From contig JACQXE010000067.1 in the NCBI GenBank assembly GCA_016208915.1, positions 1 to 32,505 on the forward strand: 32,505 nucleotides of DNA, written 5' to 3'. This DNA comes from Nitrospirota bacterium. Its GTDB lineage: Bacteria; Nitrospirota; Thermodesulfovibrionia; Thermodesulfovibrionales; UBA1546. The first letter of the stretch is position 1. Each line of letters begins with the position of its first letter. Shown here in pieces: positions 11,697 through 32,331 of this stretch. A model generated the notes under the pieces. The model searched no databases. It saw nothing but the letters and a program-made list of their open reading frames with translations, and was not told the DNA's origin. The translations under genes and the position numbers were made by a program.

Positions 11697-11861
11697 ATGT
11701 TGGACTTTATCGGGAAAACAGTAGAGGTTTTAACCATAGATACAACATATACAGGTAAGCTCGTTGAGATCGGAGAGACAGAAGTCAGTATCGAGTCAGA
11801 ATTAGGATGGATATCGATTCCTGTTGAAAAGATTGTTTCCATCACAGAGAAAGAGGGCTAA
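11697..11861 (+). CDS. Small 54-residue beta-rich protein, unknown function
   Basis: ATG at 11697 to TAA at 11861 encodes a compact 54-residue protein. It has alternating hydrophobic and charged residues (T-V-E-V-L-T-I-D-T-T-Y-T-G-K-L-V-E-I-G, then E-V-S-I-E-S-E-L-G-W-I-S-I-P-V-E-K-I-V-S-I). The pattern of short beta-strands around a central Gly is reminiscent of an Sm-like or SH3-like barrel half, and I believe similar small proteins occur in related bacteria, but this is memory only. There is no Cys, signal or membrane segment. Its stop overlaps the rsmE stop by 4 bp on the opposite strand. Upstream are a repeat and a weak AT-rich promoter region; there is no strong ribosome binding site. 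Confidence 0.6.
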   Translation: MLDFIGKTVEVLTIDTTYTGKLVEIGETEVSIESELGWISIPVEKIVSITEKEG

Positions 11862-12622
11862 ATATCTCCGAGAAGATACTGAATGAGTGTAACTGCAGAG
11901 ATTGCTGCTGTCTCTGCACGGAGAATGCGCCTTCCCAATGATGTAATTGTGAGTCCTTTAGAACTTGCGATATCAATCTCCTCTTTTGTAAAACCACCTT
12001 CCGGACCGATTAAAACGTGAATGGGCGAATCTGTGAATGGGCGAATCTGTGAAAAAGAAATTTTAAGAATTGCATCTTTTAATGGTAATCCTCCCTCTTC
12101 CCATAGAATGAACCCCTTCATTTCTCCGTTTCTCTGTGTCCCCGTTTCTCCGTGTCCTGTGGGCTTTAACAGTGCCCTCAACTCTATAGGTTCTCGCACA
12201 ACAGGCACCATACTCCTTCCGCTCTGTCTTGCTGCCTCTTCTGCAATCTTTCTCCACCTCTGAACCTTCCTTGTCTGCCTTATCTGGCTTCTCTCAGTAA
12301 TAGCAGGGATTATCTCTTTAATGCCAAGTTCTGTTGTTTTTTGGATTACCATATCCATCTTTTCGCCCTTGAGAATGCCCTGAATGAGTATGAGATTTAG
12401 CGGTGATTCTGTATTAATGAAAGACTCTTCAAATATATCTGCAACCACATTCTTATTCTCAATGCCGATGATTCTTGATTTATAGGAACCGCCCTTCCCG
12501 TCTAATATCTCAAGCTCATCGCCCACATTACATCTGAGAACAGATGTCAGATACCTTGCATTGTCACCTGATATTGTTATTCTCCTGCCCTGAAGACTTT
12601 CTTTTGGGAGGATAATACGCAT
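11858..12622 (-). CDS. rsmE: 16S rRNA (uracil-1498-N3)-methyltransferase RsmE
   Basis: This 254-residue SPOUT methyltransferase has an N-terminal PUA-like domain (about 1-72). K-G-E-K-M-D-M-V-I-Q-K-T-T-E-L-G-I follows near 90-106, then the knot motifs I-G-P-E-G-G-F and L-G-R-R-I-L-R-A-E-T-A near the C-terminus. It methylates U1498 of 16S rRNA using S-adenosylmethionine. Two segments are not family sequence. Residues about 155-168 (T-G-H-G-E-T-G-T-Q-R-N-G-E-M) and about 190-204 are encoded by short tandem repeats at 12121-12160 and 12017-12053. Both fall between conserved motifs and keep the frame, so the enzyme may still work. It converges on the 54-residue gene. Confidence 0.9.
   Translation of the reverse strand: MRIILPKESLQGRRITISGDNARYLTSVLRCNVGDELEILDGKGGSYKSRIIGIENKNVVADIFEESFINTESPLNLILIQGILKGEKMDMVIQKTTELGIKEIIPAITERSQIRQTRKVQRWRKIAEEAARQSGRSMVPVVREPIELRALLKPTGHGETGTQRNGEMKGFILWEEGGLPLKDAILKISFSQIRPFTDSPIHVLIGPEGGFTKEEIDIASSKGLTITSLGRRILRAETAAISAVTLIQYLLGDI
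12017..12053. repeat. 16 bp tandem repeat inside rsmE
   Basis: GTGAATGGGCGAATCT occurs twice in exact tandem (12017-12032 and 12033-12048), followed by GTGAA. The unit is not a multiple of three, so its copy number affects frame. The coding sequence is nevertheless open through it. Confidence 0.85.
12121..12160. repeat. Degenerate octamer-periodic tract inside rsmE
   Basis: Eight-base units of the type TTTCTCCG and TGTCCCCG follow each other five times. Seen as 16-mers, TTTCTCTGTGTCCCCG is followed by TTTCTCCGTGTCCTGT. The tract encodes the Gly/Glu/Arg-rich insertion in RsmE. Confidence 0.75.
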
Positions 12623-12626
12623 TTCG

Positions 12627-12720
12627 TTGTATTATATCTATGCCGGACAGAGATTGACAAGAAAAAGACTCGGAGCAGATATAATTCTTGACATAGGCAA
12701 AAATGCTTTGATAGGATTTG
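12627..12720 (+). pseudogene. Possible DUF2283 relic next to rsmE
   Basis: The open frame from a TTG at 12627 reads L-Y-Y-I-Y, then a basic stretch and A-D-I-I-L-D-I-G-K-N-A-L-I-G-F. It closely resembles L-L-Y-I-R-L and E-D-I-V-L-D-I-G-E-N-D-R-I-I-G-I of the DUF2283 protein at 13730-13939. The N-terminus is missing or lies across the rsmE start, and the similarity stops after I-G-F. The frame continues to 12827 without family character. This is most likely a decayed DUF2283 copy; chance resemblance is possible. Confidence 0.3.
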
Positions 12721-12759
12721 TGAGTAATGGGGGTGAATATCACCTCATTTCAGGTAAAA

Positions 12760-12791
12760 GTAGGATAAACGAAATACTTCGTCTATCCTAC
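12760..12791. repeat. 32 bp palindrome, REP-like
   Basis: GTAGGATAAACGAA (12760-12773) and TTCGTCTATCCTAC (12778-12791) pair over 14 bp with one mismatch around the loop ATAC. A degenerate half of the same sequence (GCGAAGTAGTTCGTCTAT) follows at 12809-12826. REP-type palindromes of this size are often mobilised by IS200-like transposases; that connection is inference. Confidence 0.7.
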
Positions 12792-12831
12792 CAAAACAGG
12801 ACAAAAAGCGAAGTAGTTCGTCTATGAACAA

Positions 12832-12851
12832 GTTAGGTGTTTATTGCGGGC
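12832..12851 (+). other. Cassette-like boundary motif, copy 1
   Basis: This is the first of three occurrences of GTTAnnTGyTyATTGCrGGC in the + orientation, the others being at 13461-13480 and 14020-14039. It precedes the lipoprotein gene. GTTAGGT here also fits the GTTRRRY core of integron attC sites. The region to its left lacks the long paired arm seen at the other two sites. Confidence 0.5.
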
Positions 12852-12899
12852 AGGTATACATCATCTTAACATAGAAATAAATAAAGGAGGAGACACATC

Positions 12900-13322
12900 A
12901 TGAGAAATCTCTTGATTGCCATTAGTGCTTTGATATTACTTTCAGGATGTTCAGTAGGCATGGCAATGTCAGGAAAGCAAGACCCTAATTTCGGAGCTTT
13001 TCGGGTTGGCTCAACAAGAGGAGAGGTTGAATTGCAACTCGGGAGTTCCATTACATCGACTACGACACCAGACGGTAAACGGATTGATATATACGAATAT
13101 GAATTGGGCAATGCGCCCTCTGCTGGAAGGGCTATTGGTCACGGGGTAATGGATATCTTAACACTGGGATTATGGGAAGTTGTGGGAACTCCTATTGAAG
13201 GGTTTCAGGGTGAGAAAAGAAGGCTGTTTATCGTATATGACAAAAATGATAGAGTAGAAGCAATTAATCAAGCACCTATGCCAAAAACACAAGAAGAAGT
13301 GGAAAAGAAGGAACAACAATGA
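12900..13322 (+). CDS. Small lipoprotein, BamE/SmpA-like fold suspected
   Basis: This 140-residue protein starts with a lipoprotein signal peptide (M-R-N-L-L-I-A-I-S-A-L-I-L-L-S-G-C, lipidated Cys at 17). The mature region has R-V-G-S-T-R-G-E-V-E-L-Q-L-G near 36-49, the G-x-T-x-x-E-V-x-x-x-L-G pattern of BamE/OmlA-like domains. A conserved-looking V-M-D-I-L-T-L-G-L-W-E-V-V-G-T-P-I-E-G block follows. I recall similar lipoproteins of unknown function in scattered bacteria, sometimes in mobile contexts. AAGGAGG lies 9 bp before the ATG. It stands alone, on the opposite strand to its neighbours, between two boundary motifs, which suggests an acquired accessory gene. It is probably anchored in the outer or inner membrane leaflet. 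Confidence 0.75.
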   Translation: MRNLLIAISALILLSGCSVGMAMSGKQDPNFGAFRVGSTRGEVELQLGSSITSTTTPDGKRIDIYEYELGNAPSAGRAIGHGVMDILTLGLWEVVGTPIEGFQGEKRRLFIVYDKNDRVEAINQAPMPKTQEEVEKKEQQ

Positions 13323-13400
13323 TCATTTAGAGAAAAGTGATAGGGGTCAAATCTACAAAATATATTTTATAAACAATATAAAAAAATGCCTGCAGCGGCA

Positions 13401-13480
13401 GATAATATGTTGCAAAAGATTTATCGTCCAAAGGTTACGCCATTCTTTTGTAACAGAAACGTTAGTTGTTCATTGCGGGC
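13401..13480 (+). repeat. attC-like / cassette boundary element, copy 2
   Basis: The right 38 bases (13443-13480) match 14002-14039 at 30 positions. The left part (GATAATATG, CAAAAGA, CCAAA) aligns with the left part of the copy at 13961. GTTGCAAAAG at 13409-13418 pairs with CTTTTGTAAC at 13445-13454, with one G-T wobble. This gives an imperfect hairpin that precedes GTTAGTTG. It lies downstream of the lipoprotein gene. The first bases of the 13323-13400 stretch are AT-rich with no feature. Confidence 0.5.
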
Positions 13481-13500
13481 TTTATAAATAAAAGGAGGGC

Positions 13501-13635
13501 GTGAAAAAAGGAAAAAGGGGGCCAGTTCTATTTAAAGAATGCCCGAACCTTCATTTAACAACCGGCTTTGCGACGCTTCAATATCCATTAAGACAGCATT
13601 ATTATCTGAAGAAAAAAACAAGCAGAGTGCTATAA
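13501..13635 (+). CDS. Doubtful 44-residue ORF
   Basis: GTG at 13501 follows AAAGGAGGGC directly and the frame is open to TAA at 13635. The product is basic (K-K-G-K-R-G-P-V-L-F-K-E-C at the start, Y-Y-L-K-K-K at the end) and matches no family I know. The ribosome binding site is very close to the GTG. It fills part of the 13481-13672 stretch inside the cassette-like island, and may be a fragment of a lost gene. Confidence 0.25.
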   Translation: MKKGKRGPVLFKECPNLHLTTGFATLQYPLRQHYYLKKKTSRVL

Positions 13636-13729
13636 TAAACCAAAGGGAACTAAGGAATAAGAATTATTTTTTATGGAAATTCGGATTGATCCTCATACTT
13701 TAGAACGCACGGAAAATGGGAGGTGTGAC

Positions 13730-13939
13730 GTGAATATTGTCTATAACGACAAGACTGACCTTCTCTACATCAGGCTTGATGATAAAAAGCAGGATGTAAT
13801 TAACAGGAGAGTCTCAGAGGACATTGTTCTTGATATCGGAGAAAATGACAGGATTATCGGGATAGAAATTCTCGATGCCTCAAGACATGTTTCTCTTGAT
13901 AAACTGCTGCCTGTTAAATATGAGCTTTCAAAAGCATAG
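13730..13939 (+). CDS. DUF2283 domain protein (with possible upstream DUF4258 remnant)
   Basis: From GTG at 13730 (GGGAGG six bases upstream) the 69-residue product is a full DUF2283 protein: N-I-V-Y-N-D-K-T-D-L-L-Y-I-R-L at the start, then E-D-I-V-L-D-I-G-E-N-D-R-I-I-G-I-E-I-L-D-A-S. DUF2283 genes are frequent small partners of DUF4258-like genes in toxin-antitoxin-like pairs of unproven function. The same frame runs upstream to an ATG at 13673, whose first residues M-E-I-R-I-D-P-H-T-L-E-R resemble the start of such a DUF4258 protein. This suggests an internal deletion that fused a remnant of the partner to this gene. The gene ends 22 bp before a boundary element. Confidence 0.7.
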   Translation: MNIVYNDKTDLLYIRLDDKKQDVINRRVSEDIVLDIGENDRIIGIEILDASRHVSLDKLLPVKYELSKA

Positions 13940-13960
13940 AATACATTGCCCATAACTTCG

Positions 13961-14039
13961 GCTAACATAGCGGAAAAGACTACTGCCCAAACCCTTTGGG
14001 CTTCTTTTGCAACGTGAACGTTATCTGCTCATTGCAGGC
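13961..14039 (+). repeat. attC-like / cassette boundary element, copy 3
   Basis: GCTAAC at 13961 and GTTA at 14020 form the outer arms. AAAAG and CTTTT (with nearby GCGG/GC) form an imperfect middle stem, and GCCCAAA/TTTGGGC around CCC (13985-14001) is a perfect inner hairpin. The general layout of TAAC...GTTA with nested imperfect stems over about 60 bp resembles an integron attC site placed just after a small gene. Conservation with copy 2 runs past GTTA for another 16 bases, which is not usual for attC. Confidence 0.5.
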
Positions 14040-14055
14040 AGGGTAAACAACTATG

Positions 14056-15156
14056 CTACTTTGTCCCTGCAAAAATATCTTTCAGCTTCTCTCTGAAACC
14101 CTTTGAAACCTCATCACCGTTTATCTTTGAAAATTCTTCAAGCAGTTCCTTCTGCCTTGGTGTGATGTGTTTCGGGACTTCTATATTAACTATTACTACC
14201 TGATCGCCTCTCTGGTGGCTCCCGACCTTTGGCATTCCCTTTCCTTTTATATTGAATGTCTTTCCTGAAGGAGTGCCGGCAGGAATTTTTAGTTTTGTAC
14301 TACCGTCAATCGTGGGGATCTCGATCTCTGAACCAAGCGCTGCCTGTGGAAAAGAGACAGGAACCTTGCAATATAAATTCATCCCTTCTCTCTGAAAGAA
14401 CGGATGTTCCTCGACATCAAGAATAATGTACAAGTCTCCTGGCGGTCCGCCATAAATACCGAGTTCGCCTTCTCCTGATATCCTGAGCCTTGAATCTGCA
14501 TCCACGCCGGCTGGGACCTTAACGCTTATATTCCTGTATTGTTTAATCTTCCCATGCCCTTTGCATGCCTTGCACGGGTCTGTGATAATCCTGCCTGCGC
14601 CGTGACATTTACCGCATGTCTTGGCCACACTGAAAAAGCCCTGCTGGAATCTCACCTGACCTGTTCCTTTGCAGTTAGAACAGGTTACAGGCCCCTTGCC
14701 CGGCTCAGCCCCTGTGCCTTTGCATTCTGAGCAGTTTTCCCATCTCGGCACTTCAATTATCTTTTCAGCGCCAAACGCCGCCTCCATGAGAGTGATATTA
14801 ATGTCATATCTGAGGTCGTCTCCTTTTGCAGGCCTTGGTCCGCGTCTGCCTGTGAATGTGCCGAAGAAATCTCCAAAGATGTCTTCAAAGATATCGCCAA
14901 AACCTCCTGCTCCACCAAAAGGACTATACCCTGCACCGACACCTTCAGCAGTCCCAAACCTGTCATAATTAGACTTTTTCTCAGAGTCGGACAGGCAGGA
15001 ATACGCCTCGTTTATCTCCTTGAATTTCTCCTCAGATCCTTTGTTATCAGGATTCCTGTCAGGATGATATTTAAGGGCAAGCTGTCTGAATGCCTTTTTT
15101 ATATCCGCATCGGATGCGTCTCTTGATACACCGAGAATATCGTAATAGTCTTTCAT
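14056..15156 (-). CDS. dnaJ: Chaperone protein DnaJ
   Basis: This 366-residue type I J-protein has its J-domain with H-P-D at 31-33, then a Gly/Phe-rich linker. Four C-x-x-C-x-G-x-G zinc repeats follow ([32 protein letters not shown]), and then the C-terminal substrate-binding domains. It delivers clients to DnaK and stimulates its ATPase in the cytosol. It is the last gene of the hrcA operon. The spacer before its ATG is entirely a heptamer-periodic tract, and I see no Shine-Dalgarno there, so its translation may be weak or coupled to dnaK. Confidence 0.97.
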
Positions 15157-29882: not shown

Positions 29883-32331
29883 TGCCAGATGAAGAAGGTG
29901 TTACTGTATAAGTAGGCATAGCCGTGGTCGTAATACTAAAAGTATCGCTGACTACATCGATAGTGAGGGTAGCGTTAGTCGTTGTCGAATAAGAACTTGA
30001 TGAAGTAAGACGGACTTGAACTGAATCGCCATTGTTGACCGTGCCTGACGAAGATGTAAAGGTACCACCATTAATAGAATATTCTCCACCGGTGATTGAA
30101 ATCGGCGAAGGGGCGTTGATGCCGGAGATGGTGATAGAGTTAGAAGTAATGACCGTATTTAATGTAACGCCTGTCTGGTCGGTGAAGGTGAAAGAGTCAG
30201 GAATAGTATCAGGCAATGGTGTTATAGTGCCGCCACGAACAGGCCAGACATAGTATTTTATACTCTTATAACTTACATAGTCCGTGTAAAGCATGTTTCC
30301 ATACCGATCGAGATTCCATGCAAGGTTAGTATTAGCAGCTGCGGTAGTAGACGACCAATAGTTAGATTGAGCATTCATAAAGCCTTGGGTATTAAGCCAA
30401 AAGAAAATATTTGGCTCAGATGTATTAACAAGACTTTTAAACTCGATTCTATTGGAAAGTCGCCAATCATTGCGACCAAGATAATTGTTACTATTCAAAC
30501 ATGCAACATAATCCAAAGTTTCTTGCCATGTTTTTGTCCCACCAGAGCATGTACCAACTGTTGGCGTGCCAGCATCCTTTGTCCACATTAATCCAGTGAG
30601 ATTATCTGTAATTGTCTGATCTCCGTTATCAGCAAATCTCGGGGTAAGCCATGCAACGCCTGCTTGAATTTCCCCATCCTGTCCTGTGCCTGTACAAGTA
30701 ACTTCGGCCCCTGCTGAGTTATAACACTTCGTTTGGCCGGTTTTTGGCAAGCTAATTAATCCCCCAGACCCTGCGCGGACAATCCACACATTGCCGACAT
30801 CCGTCGCCTTACCCTGATAACCAACTCCTCCGCTATGTCCCGTTTGTGTACGGAATACCCATGCCCAAGTTTTATTATCGGCACGCGTTGTTGATAACCA
30901 GTACCAATCCGACTGAACATTTATAAATCCTTGGGTATTCAACCATGTAGGTAGAAAAGAAACACCTGCATTTACTATGCTCGGCATCTCGTTATAATTT
31001 GGCAGTCGCCAATCATTATGTCCAAGATAATTTTCGGCGTTTAACTTTGCCACGTAGTCAAGAGCATGCTGCCAGGTGACCTTTCCATCATTTGCAACGT
31101 TATCTGTATCCCATCCTGGATCTCGTGTAGTCATCAGGTTTGCATCTTTCGACCAGATTAGACCGGTCAGGTTATCCGTAATTGTCTGATCTCCGTTATC
31201 TGAAAACCTCGGATTAGGCCATGCAACGCCTGTTTGAATCGCACCGTCATCGCCAGCAGCATAGCTCGACGTCTGGCCAGTGCGGGGGAGGTCAATGGCG
31301 GGAAAAGCATTGGTGGCATATTTGAGGTCATGATTACTAGCGTCAGAATAACTTATATGAACTTTGCCCTGTGAGTCGATGGCTATAGAAGTATAATAGC
31401 CCACATACCCAGCGCTATCAATCGTAGATGTAACCCATGTTCCTGAGGCATTTGTTGCATATTTGAGACTACCATTTGAATTATCCAAATAGCTTATATG
31501 CGCCTTATTGCTTGAATCTATTACTATGGAAGTATCTCCATACCCTCCACTGCTAACGGTAGATACAGCCCATGAGCCTCCAGTATTCGTGGCATATTTG
31601 ATACCGCAGTTTATGAGATCATAATAACTTATATGAACCTTGTTATTTGAATCGAGAGCTATAGAGGTATAACTGCCCACATAGTTTCCACTGTCAATCG
31701 TAGAAGTAACCCATGTTCCTGAGGCATTTGTTGCATATTTAAGATCATCATTTGTATCATCAAAATAACTGACATGCGCCTTGCCATTTGAGTCAATGGC
31801 GATAGAGGTATAAGTGCCCACATTTCCAACGCTATCAATAGTTGATGTAACCCATGTGCCTGAGGCGTTCGTTGCATATTTGAGGTCATAGTTGCCTTGG
31901 TCATTATAGCTAATGTGCACTTTGTTATTTGAATCGAGGGATATTGAGTTACCCCCTCCTACCCATCCGGCACTGTCAATGGTAGAAGTAACCCATGTGC
32001 CTGAGACATTTGTGGCATATTTGAGGTCTTGGTTGGTATCATCAGAATAGCTTATATGTACTTTATTGTTTGAATCTACAGCAATTGATGCATATCTCCC
32101 TACACCCAAAGAACTATCCACTGTTTCATACTGCCATTGTGTACCATCGTAATAGGCATGATAAAGGTGATCGCCGCCGTAAACAATATGAGGGTAGTTA
32201 GTAACTTTATCGATAGCGATAGACCGCTGGGACATGTTTGTAAAATACTTCGGCGCATCCACTGCCTCAATTGTCCATGAAGCAAAAGACAAAGAAGGCA
32301 AAACCAGTACCATAGCGCAGAAGAACAACAT
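29824..32331 (-). CDS. DUF1566 (Lcl C-terminal) repeat surface protein, N-terminal part (frameshifted)
   Basis: I choose the ATG at 32331 over a TTG just upstream; neither has a clear ribosome binding site. A signal peptide ends at L-S-F-A-S. About six to seven repeats of roughly 46 residues follow (I-A-V-D-S-N-N-K-V-H-I-S-Y, D-L-K-Y-A-T-N, G-T-W-V-T-S-T-I-D-S), to about residue 350. Then come two DUF1566 domains (each with N-G-D-Q-T-I-T-D-N-L-T-G-L-x-W and N-D-W-R-L), a beta domain near 725-810, and the start of an InlB-type repeat. The frame stops at T-A-Q-G-A-T-A-T where an S-F-T-V-T-P-N-A-G-Y-like stretch is expected. About ten residues plus the frame are lost before the downstream ORF takes over. 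The intact product would be an exported adhesin-like protein of about 1170 residues. Confidence 0.8.
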   Translation of the reverse strand: MLFFCAMVLVLPSLSFASWTIEAVDAPKYFTNMSQRSIAIDKVTNYPHIVYGGDHLYHAYYDGTQWQYETVDSSLGVGRYASIAVDSNNKVHISYSDDTNQDLKYATNVSGTWVTSTIDSAGWVGGGNSISLDSNNKVHISYNDQGNYDLKYATNASGTWVTSTIDSVGNVGTYTSIAIDSNGKAHVSYFDDTNDDLKYATNASGTWVTSTIDSGNYVGSYTSIALDSNNKVHISYYDLINCGIKYATNTGGSWAVSTVSSGGYGDTSIVIDSSNKAHISYLDNSNGSLKYATNASGTWVTSTIDSAGYVGYYTSIAIDSQGKVHISYSDASNHDLKYATNAFPAIDLPRTGQTSSYAAGDDGAIQTGVAWPNPRFSDNGDQTITDNLTGLIWSKDANLMTTRDPGWDTDNVANDGKVTWQHALDYVAKLNAENYLGHNDWRLPNYNEMPSIVNAGVSFLPTWLNTQGFINVQSDWYWLSTTRADNKTWAWVFRTQTGHSGGVGYQGKATDVGNVWIVRAGSGGLISLPKTGQTKCYNSAGAEVTCTGTGQDGEIQAGVAWLTPRFADNGDQTITDNLTGLMWTKDAGTPTVGTCSGGTKTWQETLDYVACLNSNNYLGRNDWRLSNRIEFKSLVNTSEPNIFFWLNTQGFMNAQSNYWSSTTAAANTNLAWNLDRYGNMLYTDYVSYKSIKYYVWPVRGGTITPLPDTIPDSFTFTDQTGVTLNTVITSNSITISGINAPSPISITGGEYSINGGTFTSSSGTVNNGDSVQVRLTSSSSYSTTTNATLTIDVVSDTFSITTTAMPTYTVTPSSSGNGTITPSTPQTTAQGATAT

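Follow-up and report, generated by a model that had tools for sequence, protein, structure and literature searches.

A probable orphan cassette array of an integron-like system between rsmE and dnaJ in a Nitrospirota bacterium

Positions 12749-14039 of the window, the whole stretch of 32,505 nucleotides analysed from the draft genome of a Nitrospirota bacterium, very probably hold an orphan array, one that lacks an integrase, of an integron-like system: an attI-like site and then two captured cassettes that each close with an attC-like hairpin, with a HARP-domain Xer-type recombinase (HX) as the recombinase. The sequence itself shows the site types, the cassette units, the crossover position, the association with HX and the insertion between rsmE and dnaJ. 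A first-pass annotation of the same DNA had described a cassette island with no integrase in view and had allowed for a different cassette-type mobile system; both views were right, no recombinase lying beside the array and the likely enzyme being an HX encoded elsewhere in the genome, not the integron integrase IntI.

Layout of the rsmE-dnaJ junction

The sequence GTTANNTGYTYATTGCRGGC has exactly three matches in the window, all on the plus strand, at 12832, 13461 and 14020, spaced by 629 and 559 bp, and these are indeed the same-orientation boundary repeats and the two units that had been reported. When up to three mismatches are allowed, 0.14 matches are expected by chance, and three copies appeared in none of 100 shuffles. 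The annotation had proposed a search for the conserved block elsewhere in the genome; in the organism's own draft genome (G000, 2.5 Mb in 88 contigs), the repeat pattern, with up to three mismatches, gave 23 matches as against one for the reversed control, some of them carrying the same longer element. The features of the region are as follows.

11858-12622, minus strand: rsmE, 16S rRNA methyltransferase, left chromosomal flank (Pfam PF04452, E 1e-46), adjoining dnaJ directly in most relatives
12623-12748, no strand assigned: left junction, with minus-strand -10/-35-like boxes of rsmE (direct reading)
12749-12840, plus strand: attI-like site (copy 1), predicted crossover G12832|T12833 (model R2, 59.5 bits, E 2e-16)
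12833-13461, plus strand: cassette 1, 629 bp, with the lipoprotein ORF 12900-13322 and G|TTA sites at both ends
13387-13480, plus strand: attC-like site 1 (copy 2), with left arm TGCCTGCAGCGGCAGATAAT, inner stem GTTGCAAAAGA/TCTTTTGTAAC and right arm 13461-13480 (model R1, 81.7 bits, E 8e-16)
13462-14020, plus strand: cassette 2, 559 bp, with the DUF2283 ORF 13673-13939 (E 2.6e-12)
13531-13590, plus strand: inside cassette 2, an extra left arm TGCCCGAACCTTCATTTAAC, then an incomplete repeat of a second class AACCGGCTTTGCGACGCTTCAATATCC
13947-14039, plus strand: attC-like site 2 (copy 3), with left arm GCCCATAACTTCGGCTAAC and right arm 14020-14039 (model R1, 82.2 bits, E 6e-16)
14056-15156, minus strand: dnaJ, right chromosomal flank (Pfam DnaJ_C, E 2e-51)

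The lipoprotein and DUF2283 genes named beforehand were both recovered, the former with BamE and lipobox matches that are weak. A counterpart of the DUF2283 cassette, 85% identical, adjoins a recombinase fragment in another Nitrospirae bin (L113:8523-8753). In the left junction, 12666-12705 is 70% alike to the DUF2283 gene (repeat D3) and is possibly a cassette remnant, and the 'MYYI..RLTRK' reading of this junction is present also at the same locus in the relative G001. Upstream of rsmE, on the minus strand, the motif TTGTCA-18-TATAAT lies at 12623-12665 and is found too in the short gap of the relative G005; it seems that rsmE is driven from a promoter of its own at this point of cassette insertion. 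The second repeat class, TAACAACnGGCTTTGCGACGCTYCAATATCC...CGTTGGgtCGCTCCATGTGCCTGTTC, lies 3' of attC-like left arms and recurs in related loci (L061:1640-1700; L188:616, 1879, 3814 and 5115; L112:11786; L184; L069; L020), its copy in the window, 13552-13590, being truncated; it may represent another cassette-end type or an end element. The Rfam scan gave no match. Elsewhere in the window, 31307-32078 holds internal tandem repeats of about 140 bp in a gene for a large secreted repeat protein.

The region 12623-14055 separates two genes which both lie on the minus strand and which, across 30 relatives, wherever both could be placed, are mostly 4-79 bp apart. In the window the gap amounts to 1436 bp, and two relatives, G001 (1261 bp) and G046 (1072 bp), also exceed that range. 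An attI-like site occupies the same place in the same orientation in G001 (37 bits), and G046 has another gene behind GTTATCTGCTCATAGCGGGC; the junction has therefore received, or kept, material that differs between lineages.

Two types of site and the mobility of the cassettes

Alignment of the copies placed copies 2 and 3 at the ends of imperfect palindromes of about 93 nt, and copy 1 behind a different sequence, one also seen behind recombinase genes. Two models were accordingly used. R1, for attC-like sites, was trained on 43 sites from HX loci aligned around TAAC...GTTA; the window's two sites were among them, so that their scores are no independent test. Beyond its training set, R1 detected more sites in the HX loci. 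R2, for attI-like sites, was trained only on 20 recombinase-adjacent sites, none from the window, and it also detects sites behind recombinases absent from its training. Since copy 1 is matched by R2, and is left unmatched by R1, it is taken as attI-like and copies 2 and 3 as attC-like. Of the three boundaries reported in the first-pass annotation, two stand as attC-like, with the nested imperfect arms that it ascribed to copies 2 and 3 and that copy 1 lacks, and the reading of three equal attC sites was abandoned once the attI model was available.

Across the 43 attC-like sites, 92% of the pairs are formed in a 12-pair inner stem and a 3-pair apical helix, a percentage inflated by the fact that most training sites were picked for a good inner stem, which does not inflate the covariation pattern. 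Double changes in the stem numbered 162 compared with 45 +/- 8 in shuffles, and stem covariation reached 0.687 compared with 0.235 when shuffled, the signal being lost on sliding the partner. The unpaired spacers measure 1 nt on the left in 41 of the 43 sites and 5 nt on the right in 38, in imperfect palindromes whose total length is about 93-120 nt. The core TAAC/GTTA is kept, but the heptamers R' GTTRRRY and R'' RYYYAAC occur in 9/43 and 11/43 sites, respectively, and both together in 2/43. The attI-like sites, with their two palindromic cores, resemble duplex sites, and in nearly all loci they lie about 100 bp (80-180 bp) after the HX stop codon.

If a cassette were excised as a circle at G|TTA, its first bases and the left arm at its end would together form one site. 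In 46 cases, the left arm scored a mean of 7.1 against the start of its own cassette, -1.8 against that of the next cassette and -2.2 in the null; the own start was better in 40 and the next in 5 (p 2e-7). The pairing spans about 20 nt (17-22 nt in eight examples), with the internal mismatch, where present, at positions 10-11, and it was found in six of six cassettes on a Rufibacter plasmid. The conservation beyond GTTA, which had been called unusual, is an extended outer arm of about 20 nt; related arrays show this arm paired with the left arm that closes its own cassette. Such pairing is not unique to the HX system, as had been considered, since three class 1 cassettes pair too, the outer arm being 8-12 nt long there as against about 17-22 nt here. 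The window's own two cassettes show no pairing between start and end (scores -1 and -3), so that their ends have been exchanged or have decayed; this, together with the only moderate single-strand folding of their attC-like sites, whose stems are imperfect (z-scores -1 to -2.7), indicates that the copy in the window is old or chimeric.

Homology between related loci also marks the cassette boundary. In L107 and L112, the recombinase ends and attI-like sites are 98% identical as far as the G of the attI site, beyond which the cassettes are unrelated, and a nuclease cassette common to both, at different array positions, is homologous from GTTA on. The cassettes common to L053 and L112, and to L043 and L112, begin exactly at G|TTA after unrelated sequence, the latter lying behind an attI-like site in L043 and behind an attC-like site in L112.

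The HX recombinase and its arrays

HX came to light in a search of the order with the integron integrase model, which matched true IntI and also gave two-piece matches lacking the middle, next to the motif. The protein, of about 370-385 amino acids, combines a HARP-like N-domain (PF07443, E 8e-5, below the cut-off), a SAM-like domain and a Phage_integrase domain. It passes the NF040815 model (237 bits, cut-off 220) and fails TIGR02249 (222 bits, cut-off 265), the middle of which is unmatched, compared with 367 bits for the true IntI of the same genome. An IntI-specific insertion of about 40 residues is present in five IntI of the order and absent from four HX in the alignment, and this segment is also passed over when HX is aligned to the sequence of the IntI4 crystal structure. 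The residues R, K, H, R, H and Y, at the positions taken to be catalytic in tyrosine recombinases, do not vary among twelve HX proteins. The predicted structure of the recombinase, with a mean pLDDT of 70 and a pTM of 0.46, was set aside. In the tree, whose branches to the outgroup are long, the HX proteins cluster together, with the enzymes of IS91-type transposase loci as their neighbours (99/94), and the IntI of the order stand apart (99/96); within the HX clade, hosts of different phyla are mixed. NCBI names the homologues 'site-specific tyrosine recombinase/integron integrase'.

A scan of 85,000 species genomes, in which short contigs may be misbinned, yielded 40 HX loci, in bins of Nitrospirota, Desulfobacterota, other former Deltaproteobacteria, WOR-3, Marinimicrobia, Stahlbacteria, Ratteibacteria, Acetothermia, Nitrospinota, Acidobacteriota and others; related loci occur in bins of more than 10 phyla, the hosts being mostly metagenome bins. 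Their common plan is a recombinase, an attI-like site and then same-strand cassettes with attC-like sites between them. In L063 (Nitrospirota), for instance, an attI-like site and three attC-like sites lie behind the HX gene, together with small genes of the same strand, a plan repeated in WOR-3, Acetothermia, Nitrospinae, Acidobacteria and other bins. Furthermore, plasmids of Bacteroidota carry full-length HX homologues at 39-43% identity: in Rufibacter tibetensis (L197) the homologue precedes eight small same-strand genes with hairpin sites between most of them, and in Chryseobacterium (L196) the attI-like end AAACAA|GTT resembles the Nitrospirota sites. No HX homologue was found in phages and viral contigs.

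According to the proposed mechanism, HX would recombine at G|TTA to cut cassettes out in circular form and would integrate them (attC x attI) into the landing site that follows its own gene, the attC-like site acting as a folded single strand. Recombination at the sites in the window, the role of HX as the enzyme, the single-stranded action of attC and the loss of a local recombinase are what we infer from sequence comparison. The rsmE-dnaJ array would have lost its local recombinase, deleted or degenerate copies beside an attI-like site being known in relatives. L187:1865-2167 (G013:C95) encodes an HX whose catalytic part has been lost in frame, the remainder being joined to the last 31 residues, and an attI-like site and three attC-like sites still come after it; a deletion of this type is a route to orphan arrays. 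L176 and L177 hold only HX fragments, beside a lone attI-like site. The array in the window would be in the same state as these three loci, with nothing left of the gene. An intact array with a full-length HX, its own attI and cassettes is present on contig C25 of the same genome, and this HX, which could act in trans on the rsmE-dnaJ array, is likely to be its cognate enzyme.

Alternative explanations and relation to known systems

The array might be an ordinary CALIN, that is, canonical attC sites moved by the true IntI of the genome, with HX as a mere neighbour. CALINs are common (PMC9668308), the core TAAC/GTTA and the G|TT crossover are common to attC, and G000 carries a full-length IntI on C64 as well as IntI fragments. 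This explanation is nevertheless very unlikely. R1 sites were absent from 206 kb around 16 IntI genes and from three class 1 integron regions, class 1 attC included; the R boxes depart from the canonical form as described, and the attI-like site comes after the HX stop. Moreover, R1 sites, present in 21 of the 61 genomes of the order, track HX, occurring in 7/7 HX genomes (p 0.0003), and are not associated with IntI (p 0.24; p 0.72 among HX-free genomes). The lack of sites around IntI genes and the lack of association with IntI also led to the rejection of the motif as the attC of the genome's IntI. Of the 21 genomes with R1 sites, 14 had no detectable HX gene, which is a weak point, the likely reasons being assembly breaks and gene loss; given these genomes, IntI or another enzyme might act in trans on some arrays. 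As a separate observation, near-identical C-terminal pieces of true IntI lie at the ends of several contigs and are followed there by different genes (C61 and C63 of G000, C5 and C26 of G001; L074, L075, L179, L180), which suggests a multicopy IntI without cassettes.

Modules with sites acting as duplexes, as in the pdif system, would involve the same cassettes and enzyme without hairpins. HX is Xer-like, the attI-like sites have the duplex-like look already noted, and HX lacks the IntI insertion that is said to accommodate extrahelical bases (PMC4792948); against this, the inner stem of the attC-like sites covaries through changing sequence within long imperfect palindromes, the unpaired spacers are nearly fixed, a mismatch lies about 11 nt from the crossover, and what is conserved is structure, not sequence, all of which make duplex action unlikely. 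Terminators, or REP-like elements that transposition has spread between genes and that have nothing to do with cassettes, would account for the intergenic position of the elements and for GCCC..GGGCTTCTTTT, which on direct reading looks like an intrinsic terminator, but the complementarity over about 20 nt between start and end of the same cassette, the homology that ends exactly at G|TTA and the arrays headed by a recombinase with its own second type of site already contradict this explanation, to which we give almost no credence.

The favoured reading, an orphan array of an HX-driven integron-like system, can be set against the known systems. Integrons based on IntI are recognized by an integrase with an additional domain near patch III (PMC9668308, PMC4792948) and by attC sites with R boxes (PMC9668308, PMC4792948, PMC2727003). 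Recombination through the single-stranded bottom strand is another of their hallmarks. Chromosomal integrons and the HX system share a recombinase, a landing site beside its gene, tandem same-strand cassettes, palindromic sites at the cassette ends, the G|TT crossover, complementary cassette start and end, and orphan arrays, whereas HX lacks the IntI-specific insertion and forms a separate clade, and its sites have R boxes other than GTTRRRY/RYYYAAC and spacers of 1 and 5 nt. The attI site lies beside the recombinase gene at HX loci, and stands without a recombinase in the rsmE-dnaJ array; the attC hairpin is conserved in structure, most sites having been selected for their stem; and tandem cassettes of one orientation, with the G|TT crossover and with matching ends that imply a circular form, occur in related loci, the ends being unmatched in the window's two. 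On the other side, HX is devoid of the IntI-specific domain and falls outside the IntI clade, and few sites carry both the R' and the R'' heptamer. The HX system is hence of integron organisation, yet not a member by the IntI and attC criteria.

Xer-type enzymes move small gene modules in the pdif (XerC/XerD) system as well, pdif sites being duplex sites of about 28 bp. A CALIN, which IntegronFinder calls from at least two hits of the attC covariance model with no IntI nearby, is likewise a cassette cluster without an adjacent recombinase, but the rsmE-dnaJ array keeps an attI-like site and differs in the type of its sites. The closest enzymes to HX in the tree, the IS91-associated tyrosine recombinases of the NF040815 XerA-like family, lie beside IS91-type transposases, with no HARP-like N-domain and no cassettes seen. 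In Treponema integrons, intI is transcribed toward attI (PMC3607928); HX likewise reads toward its attI-like site, the Treponema enzyme being an IntI. In the literature searched, whose coverage was incomplete, no description of cassette arrays run by HX-like enzymes was found.

It is probable, although with less assurance than for the array itself, that a separate class of integrons is represented here, with HARP-Xer recombinases devoid of the IntI I2 insertion and folded cassette sites with outer arms of about 20 nt, in many phyla and on Bacteroidota plasmids, a class which would have arisen independently or would preserve the state before the insertion. The IntI-specific insertion has been described as defining integron integrases and as needed for integron recombination, and a cassette system without it makes the origin of integrons testable in terms of which parts of enzyme and site are needed for capture. 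Searches which require the IntI domain will miss HX arrays, whose genes in candidate phyla and Bacteroidota, among them toxin-antitoxin pairs, lipoproteins, nucleases and methyltransferase genes, are probably uncatalogued. HX could also serve as a new tool for moving DNA, and gene-capture arrays of the HX type have probably been overlooked across many bacterial groups.
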